Made by a program: the position numbers and the translations under genes
Notes under the pieces: generated by a model
Seen by the model: only the letters and a program-made list of their open reading frames with translations
Told to the model about the DNA's origin: nothing
Database searches by the model: none
Source of the DNA: Cliona cf. orientalis
Taxonomy: Eukaryota > Porifera > Demospongiae > Clionaida > Clionaidae
Direction: 5' to 3'
NCBI GenBank assembly: GCA_963930775.1
Contig: OZ005691.1
Span: forward strand, 6,073,000 to 6,136,999
Length of the DNA stretch: 64,000 nucleotides
Shown: positions 7,634 through 14,629 of the stretch, piece by piece
How positions within the stretch are numbered: position 1 is the first letter of the stretch
How the letters are laid out: each line of letters opens with the position of its first letter

Positions 7634-10600
7634 TTAGGATGAATGAACTTTTAAATACTCTACAACATGATGATGACCATGGCTACGTGCCATTTTCCTT
7701 GGTGTACCATTGTGCTGCCCTCTGATGTTTGGAGGACAGTGGAGCACTTCAACGAAGAATTTGACAAGTTTTAGGTGGCCGCATCTGGAAGCATCATGAA
7801 GAGGAGTGTTGTTATCTGTGGCAATACACAGTGGGTCACAGTGCTGCTTCAGGGTGAGGTACTGCACTACCTCAAGATGACCACACTGAGCTGCGAGGTG
7901 CAAGGGCGTTACTCTCTCACTGTCCAAATGGGATGGATTACATTTACACTGTTCTACTAAGTATTTGATGATGTGCAGATGTCCTCCTTGGGCAGCAGAA
8001 TGGAGGGCAATTCTACCTCCAACTCCAGTAGTCCTACCCTGGTACTGAACAGGTAGAGCAATATTTGGGTCACATTTTAGGTCTGTGATGAAGTATTCGA
8101 CTAGCTGTAAGTGTCCTTTTAAAGCCGCGAAATGGATAGGATTTGCTCCACCTATACCTCTGCTAGTAACTATATTCCTGAGTGGAAGAAACTTGCTTAG
8201 TTCATTTACCAGATATCTCACAACATTAATATCCCCAGCCTGAGAAGCAAGATGCAGTGGAGTAGTGCCATTGTGAGCACAAGACAGTGGATCCATCTGT
8301 TGCTCGGCAACCAGATAGCGGACTATATCAAGATGCTTACCAGCTGCTGCATAGTGAAGAGGTGTCGCACCTCGAATGTCTTGACTTGCTGGATTACATC
8401 CCTTTTCTTCGATGAAATATCTCAGCACTCTTAGCTGGCCACCCCAAGCTGCACAGTGAAGTGCATTCCTTCCAAATATGCCTTCTTTCTCCAATCGATC
8501 AAACCGCCACTTTTCAGTTACTTCCTTTACTTTCTTCAAATCTCCTCTTTCTGATGCTATATGTAGTTCAGTTTCACTAGGTATAGTGAACTGGTAGTCC
8601 CCACAGGAGAGCTGAACAACACCTACACTGGATAACTCGGCTTCCTGCTCGCTAGAGAGAGGAAAGATGGCTTGCTGGACAGAGTGAAGAATTTGAAAGA
8701 TCAGCTTGATGCTTCCAGGTTTAATGTAACACAGTCGTAGTGTTACATTGGAGATGTTCAAAACATTCTGTAAGTTGCTGACAAATGCTGATAAATGGTT
8801 CACATTGCACTTGTCAAATGAATCATCCAGTGTCACAAGCATATTTGCTTGTCCTTCATAACTTTCACCGACTTCTGATGGGCACTCGAATACATGGCGC
8901 TCCCCATACTTAGCGAAGTCCTCCTCGTACTTGGCTAGCTTCTCTTTGTCCTGCTCAGTTCCTAGCTTCTGTATGATGTGTGCCACCAGTCGATAGTTAA
9001 AGAACGAACAGTATTTATTGACAACTGACATGGCATCATCGACTGACTCAGACTTCCTTAGTTCTGGTAATTGATGTCTGAAAACAGGCTCACCGGAATC
9101 ATCAAATGTTGGCTTTAACTGTCCTAGGCATTCTAAATGACGAGCCAATTCTCTTACTGGAATGTTACTTCTTTGTAAAGAATCAGTTGTTGATGAAAAA
9201 AGTTCTTGGAATTTATACATCATTTCTTCAGATTCAGCATAAAGCCTCTGGTGAAGTTCTTGTTTTTTTTCATCACTCATATCTTTCAGATTCAAGCAAT
9301 GGAAAGTAAAATGAGGCTTAGCAACATCAGAAGTTGGTACATTGGTCTCCGGAGTAGCTGATAGAAAAAATGTTTATGTAAAGCAAATTAATTTATAGGA
9401 GATGATGCAATACCTTGTACACACAGATCAACTTTTGCCTGTGAGTCACTACCTTTATCATTGGAAGCTACAAGTATAGAGAATAATATTTACAGTAGCA
9501 TCATCCCCAGGCCTTCTGATTGGGGGGGGGGGGGGGAAGACCTAGTGAATGAGCATGTGCCGTTATTATACACATTTTGAATACCATTGTATCCCGGGTA
9601 AGCACCCATGGGTGCTTAAACGTAACTCGCAGTTTTGCCCTGCATAGGCGCTTACCCAGGATATAACTTATGTACATATTCTGCCTAGTATACTTACTCT
9701 TCATTTTTAATTCCTTGCGTTCATCGGACCTGCAAACGGCAGGCTTGGACAGTTCGAATGTGAATGAGATTTCGAGGTAGCTAGAGCGACGTTGTCGTAT
9801 CAATTGACGAAGGCCTCTTAACAGTGGGGACACTGTCAGGTGTTTAGTGTACACAGGTCAGGAGGTCATTCTTAGACATATGGACCATTTCAGTTGTCAG
9901 CACGTGGTAAGGATTAGTGTGTGGACGGTAAATTATATGGAAAATGTAGCGCATGCATGCGCATGCAATGGATACCAGGGCTTCTCTCCCCCTCCCCCAA
10001 GCCTGGGGACAAGTCTGTATTTACAGTAACCATAAACCTACCATCTAGTACCATAACAGTCTGAGAATGCTTAACAGCCAGGCTTTCAAACAAACGCTTG
10101 TCTACTTCAGCCACAGCTTTGAGAAGACTCCTCCATGAAGGTCTACCGAATGTATCTGTGTTGTAATTTTGCCTGATCCAGTGTTTGAGGGCTTCGCTCC
10201 AACAGTGGTAGTTGTCACCAGAGCCCTTAATGTTATCAATCACATCACATGACAGGCCAAGGTATGTGCTCAACTGCTCCCATTTGGCAGCTAGTGACTT
10301 ACACTCTATCACAACAATATTCCAGTCCTCTATTTCTGCAGTGATAAAAAATGAGTTGCCTAGTCATGTCAGACTGCAAAATTAATATTGAAATTATACC
10401 AAAAGTTTTCCTCTCAACAGTCATAAGAATTTCTTCAATCTTTTGATCTAAATAAAGAAAATCCATTACAACACATTCTGCTAGGCACTGATTCCAGTAT
10501 TGAGGGGGGGGGGGGGCAGGGGGAAGGAGAGGCTGCTAAATTTGTAATGTAATAAAACGACGGGTTGAAATACCTATTCAATATCAAGGCAAGGCAATAA

Positions 10601-11833
10601 AGGAGGACAGAGCTCGTTGTCAATCACAGTCAGCGCAAGGAGCGGAAGCTATGCGTTGCCAGACTACAGTAGCTATATTTGCATACAAAATAGACACTAC
10701 GTGGAAGGGGCTATCAGGCAGGCACATGGCAATAATGACTGTCATGGCCTGGTTGGATCTGTGTTAGTGGTCTATCATGGCATGCTATGGGTTTAAACTT
10801 AGTTTTTGAGTTGCAGCTATTCCAGTCCGACAAACTCTGAGACTTTTGCTCAGGCTTGCCCCAAACAGGCTCAGCATGACACTAGTAGCATAAGTATAAG
10901 CAGGAGTACATTACAAGGAGTGTGCAACACACACAGTCTATAGTAGTACAAACATCATTTTCCAGATATGATATCACAACCACCCTTGTACGTACGTACA
11001 TGGGCCTGAATATCATTAGAAGGTACTTAAGTTCAACCACTGAGTTACATTCTGTATAGCTGCAGCTGCAGCTAGTTACTATCAAAACACTGGTTTTAGT
11101 GGTTGCATATTAATGATATTCTGTGACATCAAATCTGGAAAGAGATGATTGTACTATTACTATGTGGGTTGCATACTCCTAGTAATGTACTCCTGGTATA
11201 AGTCATGATCTCACTTGGTCCAGGGTTGAGTTCCACATCTCCAGACATGATGAGTCGTTGACGTATGACCAACTGTGTTGATCGAGGCTGGAGTGACCCA
11301 GACCACACTGACCCCACTCCAGAGTACATGAATACTTCACAAAAAGCATGGCAAACTAGCCGCTCCTTGGTGACCTTTGACCCCACCATATCACGGCTCT
11401 GTCCAGTACCTGTCACATTGTAGTCTAACTGTCTGCAAAGTTCTCCCGTTAGGAAACACCGTTTCAGAAATAGCCACAGAACGAAAAAAAATTTATAGCC
11501 GATCACCAATGTACCACACAGTGCTGCCAACAATTGAAACAGTTTCTCTATGATCCTCCAACAAAAATCTAGTAGCAAAGAGACAAAGAAGACAAGAAGC
11601 CAATGGCGTCTCTTGAACGACCGCCAATGCTTGGAGTGAATCACGTGATTCAGGCAACAGATGAGAAGGAATAGCAACATCCATCCACTGCACACACCCC
11701 CCTCGCTCATCTGCCTCTTGTAGTGCTGGCTGGACATCCTCCTAATTGCAAGGATCCCTCTAATCCGGCGACGATCATACTTGTCAGGGAGGTCGGAACG
11801 AGCCTGGGAAACGTCGAGATCAATTCCATCCAT
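7634..11833 (-). CDS. 2A-containing membrane/Death-domain/ankyrin protein
   Basis: Five exons join in frame into 912 codons: 11833-11215, 10447-10400, 10335-10042, 9467-9414 and 9357-7634. All four introns are phase 1. Exon 1 (206 residues) has hydrophobic stretches at about 51-66, 78-93 and 97-124, then ends in SGDVELNPGP, a canonical 2A-like motif. Exon 3 is a Death domain (about 230-310; LAAKWEQLSTYLGL, CWSEALKHWI, GRPSWRSLLKAV). Exon 5 has a region of about 240 residues I cannot name (VNKYCSFFNYRLVAHIIQ), then about nine ankyrin repeats (about 601-905). If 2A works, ribosomes release a 205-residue membrane peptide and then make a 707-residue soluble Death/ANK protein starting at Pro. Death domains recruit signalling partners and ankyrin repeats bind protein. 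The start ATG at 11833 is the first in frame in the visible context. Exon joins are inference. Confidence 0.8.
9524..9537 (+). repeat. Poly(G) run in an intron
   Basis: About 14 G in the intron between the Death-domain exon and the next short exon. A similar run lies at about 10503-10516 in the exon 1/2 intron. Such runs are frequent in this window (21219, 44905, 54574). Confidence 0.8.
9578..9668. mobile_element. Family D palindromic MITE fragment in intron
   Basis: GTATCCCGGGTAAGCACCCA at the left and GGCGCTTACCCAGGATA at the right form inverted ends. It lies in the intron between exons 3 and 4 of the Death/ANK gene. Confidence 0.7.
11216..11239 (-). other. 2A-like ribosome-skipping motif (DVELNPGP)
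   Basis: The minus strand encodes D-V-E-L-N-P-G-P as residues 199-206, preceded by TQLVIRQRLIMSG. This matches the consensus D-(V/I)-E-x-N-P-G-P used by 2A and 2A-like peptides to skip the Gly-Pro bond. A GTGAGA splice donor follows one base after the Pro codon, so the motif sits exactly at the exon end. Confidence 0.85.
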
Positions 11834-13403: not shown

Positions 13404-14507
13404 TCATATAATAATATTATCTCCAAATTGCACTCGCTTGATATTGGTACGCAGAGTGTTAGTAGAAGACCCAGAGGAATCAATGCTTTGCATGACCTGA
13501 ATGCCATATCTATCAAGTGGCATACTGCTGTTCTGAAAAACCGAGTCCAATACGTTGAGCTCAACATCCACATGATCGTCAGAGCCAAGAAGGATGGTCG
13601 GTGGGGCAGAATTATTAGTGAAGTTTGTGTGCACTATAGTAAAGTTCACAGATACATTGTTGCTCTTTTCAGCTCTAAAAATTGGCAGGATTCTACCCTT
13701 CATTGAGTTGTTGGCAATGGTACAGTTCTCAACAATGATGTCATAGTGGATGGAGTAGTTCCGCTGCAGGCCATTCAGGTCAAATATCATCATGCCATTT
13801 CCAATATTGTTAGAATCCGTGGAATTATCCAGCAACCCCCTGTTGTTGACGATCTGCGAGTTTCTTATCACAATGCTTTGCTTCTCCGATGTAACTGCAG
13901 CAATGATGGATGTTGCCATGTAGACCAGCACTGGAGTCATTGTCCCATTTAGCCTTTCAAAGACACAGTTATTAACGGTCACATCTTCCACCAAAGCTAG
14001 ACTAACAACACCTCCGTCACGAAAGGTGCAATCTTCGGCAATGAAAACCTTGAGGTAAGCAACTATGAATCCTATGCCATCATCATCCGTGCGGCAGTTT
14101 TCAAAATGTAGTCCCCTCATACGAAAAATACTGTTGGTGTTTGCATAGATAAAGTTGAGGAAGAGGGATACTCCATCGTTGCACCTAAAGGTTACCCCTT
14201 TCTTGCCAATGATGGTCACACTTGGAGTCCATGATATGTATCCTTCCGACGAGGGTAGGGTTTGATTAGTAGACACCACTATTCTTACAGAAGGACGCTG
14301 CTGCTGTAGCAAATTCCTTAGTACATAATCTATAGTGAGGCAGGGAGTTTTGCCTCCTTGCAGACAATCCGTAGTGTCCTTGCCGTTCTTTGCGACGTTG
14401 ACAGTAAAGCGCTCGTCAGCGTGGCAGAGACTAAGCAATGAGATAAGGACCAAAACGAGCTTTTCAGATCGAGACATCAGCAGCACAACAGGAGGGCTGT
14501 AGATCAC
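13404..14507 (-). CDS. Secreted beta-helix-type protein, intronless
   Basis: A single open frame of 367 residues from 14507, or 357 from the ATG at 14477, which gives a cleaner signal peptide (MSRSEKLVLVLISLLSLCHA). The body has repeated short strands with N-glycosylation sequons, e.g. FENCRTDDDGIGFIVAYLKV, EDCTFRDGGVVSL and VENCTIANNSM, typical of right-handed parallel beta-helix repeats. It has no C-terminal membrane segments, unlike the larger relative at 36512-41655, so it may be a secreted or shortened member. Its start is only about 120 bp from the syntaxin start on the opposite strand. Exact function unknown; binding to surface glycans or other ligands would be a guess. Confidence 0.75.
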   Translation of the reverse strand: MIYSPPVVLLMSRSEKLVLVLISLLSLCHADERFTVNVAKNGKDTTDCLQGGKTPCLTIDYVLRNLLQQQRPSVRIVVSTNQTLPSSEGYISWTPSVTIIGKKGVTFRCNDGVSLFLNFIYANTNSIFRMRGLHFENCRTDDDGIGFIVAYLKVFIAEDCTFRDGGVVSLALVEDVTVNNCVFERLNGTMTPVLVYMATSIIAAVTSEKQSIVIRNSQIVNNRGLLDNSTDSNNIGNGMMIFDLNGLQRNYSIHYDIIVENCTIANNSMKGRILPIFRAEKSNNVSVNFTIVHTNFTNNSAPPTILLGSDDHVDVELNVLDSVFQNSSMPLDRYGIQVMQSIDSSGSSTNTLRTNIKRVQFGDNIII

Positions 14508-14629
14508 AGATTATCCCCTGCAATATGAGAAGACTACGAGCCCCGCCCACTTTATCTTGCGATATTGGCGACCATTACCGTTTGAGAGTGCGCATGCGCT
14601 GAGAGTTGCTCAGTGACACCCTGTGTTAA
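14508..14629. promoter_or_regulatory. Candidate bidirectional promoter
   Basis: Two genes start head-to-head across about 122 bp. The palindrome GCGCATGCGC at 14590-14599 is the core of the NRF-1 site, a factor common at TATA-less bidirectional animal promoters. No TATA box is evident. Regulation is inferred from position only. Confidence 0.5.

Follow-up and report, generated by a model that had tools for sequence, protein, structure and literature searches.

Does a sponge message that opens with a membrane leader and runs on into a Death-domain protein make one protein or two? The question is raised by a gene in a 64,000-nucleotide stretch of chromosome 3 (OZ005691.1, positions 6,073,000 to 6,136,999) of Cliona cf. 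orientalis, hereafter the window, to which the coordinates below refer. We found that this gene, which lies on the minus strand, can be modelled as four predicted exons (11833-11215, 10447-10400, 10335-10042 and 9357-7634), with all three introns GT-AG, every junction in phase 1 and a joined frame of 894 codons before the stop, free of internal stops. Exon 1 (11215-11833) encodes a leader of 206 codons plus one base, with an MDG start common to most of 20 paralogous leaders. The leader carries three hydrophobic segments by the Kyte-Doolittle scale only (residues 43-61, 77-95 and 101-119, at 11651-11707, 11549-11605 and 11477-11533, respectively) and ends in the StopGo (2A) motif SGDVELNPGP (11245-11216), whose final codon, CCA, occupies 11218-11216. 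A single further base, 11215, precedes the phase-1 donor GT (11214-11213), and the open frame of the exon closes 28 codons past the motif. An earlier note, made from the letters of this DNA, had described exon 1 in these terms and had placed all downstream exons in phase 1, and our model agrees with it on both points. With predicted splicing, the StopGo core, (D/G/C/N)(V/I)ExNPGP, is coding in frame on both sides, the predicted skip falling between G205 and P206. When up to one mismatch was allowed, the core pattern occurred once in the window, as against an average of 0.01 occurrences in dinucleotide shuffles.

Downstream, exon 2 (10400-10447) is a symmetric phase 1-1 micro-exon of 48 nt, (N)QKIEEILMTVERKTF, exon 3 (10042-10335) encodes a Death domain, and exon 4 (7634-9357) encodes a linker, a TRADD-N-like domain, ankyrin repeats (7664-8599, extent approximate) and the stop. 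The Death domain is assigned by homology, as the window exon scored 16.2 bits in Pfam Death, under the cut-off of 22.6, and its relative at locus L009 exceeded that cut-off with 26.8 bits. A profile of 46 Death-like exons (the window exon and 45 others downstream of 2A sites) matched FADD in the PDB at 3.8e-6 and, weakly, CRADD and RIPK1 (0.05-0.07). The TRADD-like_N match (PF20694, 8612-8794) reached 23.1 bits against a cut-off of 23.7; among eight paralogous exons, two were over the cut-off (L046 and L048), four were below it and two had no match. When the spliced protein was used as query (with words taken from residues 1-450), the ankyrin ORF of the window was the one protein returned; ankyrin words had probably filled the candidate list. 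The Death-domain and ankyrin partner proposed in the earlier note is thus upheld, the Death domain by homology, with the window copy under the Pfam cut-off. By the same homology, the window gene has the Death domain of the Death-TRADD-N-ankyrin family. The expanded proteins of this family in Amphimedon have an N-terminal Death unit, TRADD-N and an ankyrin C-terminus (Kaur et al. 2021, PMC8195603), an order that the window gene repeats with a TRADD-N-like match below the cut-off; the accessible part of that paper mentions no 2A leader for them, whereas the window gene has one. Two further features were seen around the gene. Intron 1 (767 nt) is longer than its counterpart at most of the 25 loci compared and carries a MITE-like nested inverted repeat (10901-11195, arms 84-89% complementary), and upstream of the gene a minus-strand frame of 368 residues (13404-14510), without a Pfam match, has a signal-peptide-like start.

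We consider it highly likely, on the evidence of sequence, that the gene is a member of a large family of immune-type Death/TRADD-N/ankyrin genes in sponges, and that its first exon is a membrane leader with a functional StopGo signal. One message would then probably make two proteins, from the window gene and from dozens of related genes. As published 2A biology on skipping and restart leads us to expect, the ribosome would fail to form the G205-P206 bond and would release a membrane leader of 205 residues, and translation would resume at the proline to give a separate cytosolic Death/ANK protein of 689 residues. The leader length is that given in the earlier note, and its 707 residues for the downstream product become 689 in the present model. 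A minority of ribosomes would make the fusion, which would follow the leader into the membrane system; unskipped chains have been shown to stay fused for sea-urchin leaders (PMC4981915, in the part available). With 87 residues between the end of segment 3 and the skip site, and 65-70 as the cited figure for residues held in ribosome and translocon (PMC2978324), the long leader should be in contact with the translocon by the time the skipping decision is made. Other loci have leaders of about 20-50 residues, and these should not yet be in the membrane machinery at that point. According to the accessible text of De Felipe et al. (PMC2978324), skipping can be inhibited by certain sequences that lie upstream of 2A and are passing the translocon, a point against our reading. 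The engagement of the leader with the membrane could therefore bias skipping, and we hypothesize that long leaders may tune it by translocation state.

Is the motif in the window an accident of one gene? We searched the Cliona cf. orientalis genome (217 Mb; 216.79 Mb in 149 contigs as searched, the published assembly having 217.17 Mb in 307 scaffolds, PMC12639293) and found 105 sites for DVExNPGP (GAYGTNGARNNNAAYCCNGGNCC) and 47 for DIExNPGP, 152 core sites in all. The reversed patterns gave no site in either case, and a chance motif was rejected. A single odd gene was likewise rejected, given the 105 DVE sites, the roughly 24 copies of exon 1 and the many Death-exon homologs.

The DVE sites are associated with Death exons. 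Among the 104 of 105 that were placed (100 from the site list and 4 from the search for exon-1 copies), 50 were followed on the same strand, at a distance of no more than 3 kb, by a homolog of the Death exon of the window, compared with none on the opposite strand and one upstream; 1000 random shifts gave an average of 0.8 such sites and a maximum of 11. For DIE sites the figure was only 3 of 47. We read 77 of the 152 sites, namely the first 30 DVE sites listed, 19 further exon-1 loci, 6 of DIE type and 22 in 20 chosen loci, with loci overlapping the same exon-1 copy left out, and removal of two sites at L076 leaves a set of 75. In this set, which is no random sample and whose paralogs are not independent, a Death-like ORF lay within 1.5 kb downstream of 53 sites, but upstream or antisense of none (0/75 each), as judged with a local Death profile seeded with eight of these exons. 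With the independent Pfam Death model, a threshold of E≤0.01 was reached by 23 of the 51 downstream ORFs chosen and by 0 of 94 control ORFs; the other 28 downstream ORFs fell short of it. Of the 22 sites lacking a Death ORF within 1.5 kb, seven have one 1.6-9.9 kb downstream, two are retroelement frames (L020 and L097) and 13 are unexplained. The ORFs behind L084, L085, L087 and L089 had no Pfam match. Viewed from the other side, the best 150 of 317 candidate Death-exon homologs divide into 54 that have a 2A site no more than 3 kb upstream and 96 that have none there. Extrapolation of 53/75 read sites to 152 would give perhaps a hundred such loci in this one sponge.

The neighbours of exon 1 itself point the same way. 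A whole-genome search found about 24 copies of the exon-1 leader, including that of the window, on five chromosomes. A Death-exon homolog lies downstream of all 21 copies examined; an exon-4 homolog, in the flank examined or in an adjoining locus, accompanies 17 of them. Two of the roughly 24 carry an in-frame TAG (L064 and a copy in L071), and in another, L048, the N-terminal frame is shifted. Death-exon homologs also stand behind leaders outside the exon-1 type (L009, L026-L028, L030-L032 and L034). A micro-exon of like kind and similar length, between splice-site consensus sequences, could be read at 25 loci (for example, QKIEEVLMTVDDKTF in L045, EIEKILSEVDDTCF in L062 and EIEVILYTVDDTTF in L030), among them loci whose leaders are not of the exon-1 type. 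Conservation of such a micro-exon in frame requires that a coding exon in phase 1 precede it, and the leader provides one.

A G stands directly before the core at 77 of 77 sites read, and that G is preceded by S, A or C at 76 of the 77, with mostly leucine-rich sequence ahead. In the window the core is preceded by RLIMSG, which fits the functional leucine-rich context ending in (A/S/C)G before D. Judged from sequence, the context at the sites read is that of the leucine-rich, LLLLSG-like class of StopGo upstream contexts, as described in the accessible part of Li et al. 2026 (PMC12846837). Moreover, the best-scoring donor, 0-5 codons past the proline, is in phase 1 at 71 of 77 sites, where one third would be expected of random GT, though the score is a simple one, by which even L020, a retroelement frame, has a phase-1 donor. 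Exceptions were seen at six sites: L082 (where a phase-1 GT is also present), L086, L089, L097 and the two L076 sites.

Leaders of this kind are also found among public proteins. A profile of the leader drew 279 of them, with the core motif in 116 of the 120 among the matches listed, and a second leader type drew 345, with the motif in 119 of the 120 listed; the motif was among the search words, so that these motif-bearing counts lean upward. At least 95% identity to the Cliona loci examined was seen in 18 of the 120 listed homologs of the first type, and 38 were under 70% identity, the motif being present in 38/38 (a count subject to the same upward lean). The exon-1 type was looked for through the whole Cliona genome, so that other sponges are very probably the source of its low-identity homologs. 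For 14 of these, chosen for their low identity (56-73% to the nearest Cliona locus examined), the last ten residues are those of the window, and the whole leader averages 55% identity.

If skipping takes place, is the released leader of any use? It could be that the 2A is active and its leader product inert, the exon serving only to set the amount of Death protein or to allow different promoters, a reading that is compatible with skipping. It would account for the variety of what stands in front of the Death exons. Apart from three long-leader subfamilies, the leader types showed no mutual similarity by blastp at 1e-3. Two tandem 2A leader exons precede one Death exon both at L080 (C10:760125 and 760495) and at L081 (C10:773803 and 774007); a putative phase-1 acceptor at the second of them would allow three products, or else alternative starts or first exons. 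Further, one Death paralog without a 2A site, L099 (C10:8744700-8746450), resembles the others in its micro-exon and Death exon; in place of the 2A leader, a frame that codes for a further Death-like domain (21.0 bits against a cut-off of 22.6) is located upstream of its micro-exon, and we infer this frame to be the first exon. L099 is the one read among the 31 chromosome-10 copies that, in the best 150 Death-exon homologs, have no 2A site within 10 kb upstream. The 2A leaders thus look exchangeable among Death genes, as far as their sequences tell; that the window gene is one of many with such leaders goes beyond the earlier note.

Against an inert product stands the leader itself. An N-terminal block of approximately DxDVxQAR...DK...R...RL...H before the first hydrophobic segment is common to the three long-leader subfamilies (30 sequences). 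By pairwise counting, without a significance test, dN/dS was 0.49 over the leader in 20 paralogs, 0.36 in the chromosome-18 group of leaders and 0.12 over the last 11 leader codons (again in the 20 paralogs, which are those left from the roughly 24 exon-1 copies after omission of L064, the TAG-bearing L071 copy and two others). A ratio below 1 together with the conserved block points to a function for which the leader itself is maintained, and we regard an inert product as unlikely. As to its topology, judged from hydropathy and charge, positive charge flanks segment 1 on both sides, and an N-glycosylation sequon follows segment 3 in 10 of 19 aligned leaders. No family was found for the leader in Pfam or NCBIfam.

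A second reading does away with skipping altogether. The leader would be an ordinary signal-anchor, NPGP being kept for a turn, a protease or a retention signal, and the product a membrane-bound Death/ANK protein. Many leaders are indeed hydrophobic, and sponge gene models have led to the proposal of membrane-bound NLRs (PMC12909245, in the part available). An anchor, however, does not readily explain why leaders that are otherwise dissimilar (blastp, 1e-3) share a nearly identical end of 14 residues, why this end matches the published context of active StopGo (PMC12846837, as far as its accessible text goes), or why it also terminates frames that, counted from the first Met, are no longer than 20-21 residues (L021 and L080). 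We therefore hold this reading to be improbable. Least credible of all is that exon 1 stands outside the gene, as the exon or remnant of a non-LTR retrotransposon with a 2A, an alternative that the earlier note had named as fatal to its proposal. The genome does have a PHD/endonuclease element with an in-frame DVEVNPGP (L020) and a look-alike (L097), and exon 1 is multi-copy (about 24), but 21 of 21 copies examined precede a Death-exon homolog, the micro-exon recurs at 25 loci, and the four window proteins scanned with Pfam matched neither endonuclease nor reverse transcriptase. The open frames of L020 and L097 continue past NPGP and exceed 490 codons, whereas exon 1 stops at a phase-1 donor.

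How does a leader that would be split off by StopGo compare with known systems? Its nearest precedent is SpNLR2A, the N-terminal 2A signal sequences of S. purpuratus NLRs (Roulston et al. 2016, PMC4981915, from which the comparisons here use the portion available), where an N-terminal 2A leader is likewise found on Death-containing immune genes. The SpNLR2A primer, translated by eye, ends in LLMRSGDVETNPGP, close to LLMRSGDVEMNPGP of the sponge locus L080. The sea-urchin leader, however, is a simple signal sequence of 26 residues, whereas that of the window has 205 residues and three hydrophobic segments; what follows is Death-NACHT-LRR in SpNLR2A and Death/TRADD-N-like/ankyrin in the window gene, in another phylum. 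On their sequences, then, the long multi-segment leader, the other domains and the exchangeable first exons appear to be new relative to the sea-urchin leaders. One Cliona locus, L018/L100 (C1:10023000-10027721), has a 2A leader, two Death-like domains (under the Pfam cut-off) and a NACHT domain (2e-18, over the cut-off), and shares the combination of the sea-urchin NLRs. The 2A of non-LTR retrotransposons has the same core motif as the window (PMC4981915, same portion), but the window motif is at an exon end with no endonuclease or reverse transcriptase found beside it. Viral 2A/StopGo also shares the core octapeptide and the LLLLSG-like context, but the window motif lies in a cellular, intron-bearing gene (PMC12846837, as available). 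Our literature search, with most subscription papers outside its reach, showed, among the matches listed, no report of sponge 2A or of leaders on sponge Death/NLR genes.

In the text available of Li et al. 2026 (PMC12846837), cellular use of StopGo is called rare, with sea-urchin proteins named as an example, yet one sponge has 152 core sites, 53 of the 75 examined standing just upstream of a Death ORF. A question that can now be put to the test is whether ribosome skipping serves animal innate immunity as a standing device, and natural 2A leaders of graded length become available for the study of skipping at the ER. The transmembrane segments in sponge NLR models (PMC12909245, in its accessible part) may partly be separate leader peptides, and these models deserve re-reading. 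A wider proposal, possible though doubtful at this stage, is that Death-fold immune genes of animals make wide use of StopGo leader exons as an exchangeable first-exon module, dating from early animals or evolved repeatedly, in which 2A would act as a switch between a free cytosolic and a membrane-routed Death protein and might sense the state of translation or of the ER in infection.

Some of the 2A core sites belong to mobile elements. The in-frame DVEVNPGP of L020 reads on into a PHD finger and an endonuclease (Pfam), and the frame of L097, also with DVEVNPGP, looks like it; both are of retrotransposon type. In addition, 13 DIE sites, all on chromosome 1, have nearly identical codons. At the one place read among them, L076/L077 (C1:18011878 and 18012826), GDIEVNPGP occurs twice, 948 nt apart, with helix-turn-helix matches, in what is apparently a mobile element.
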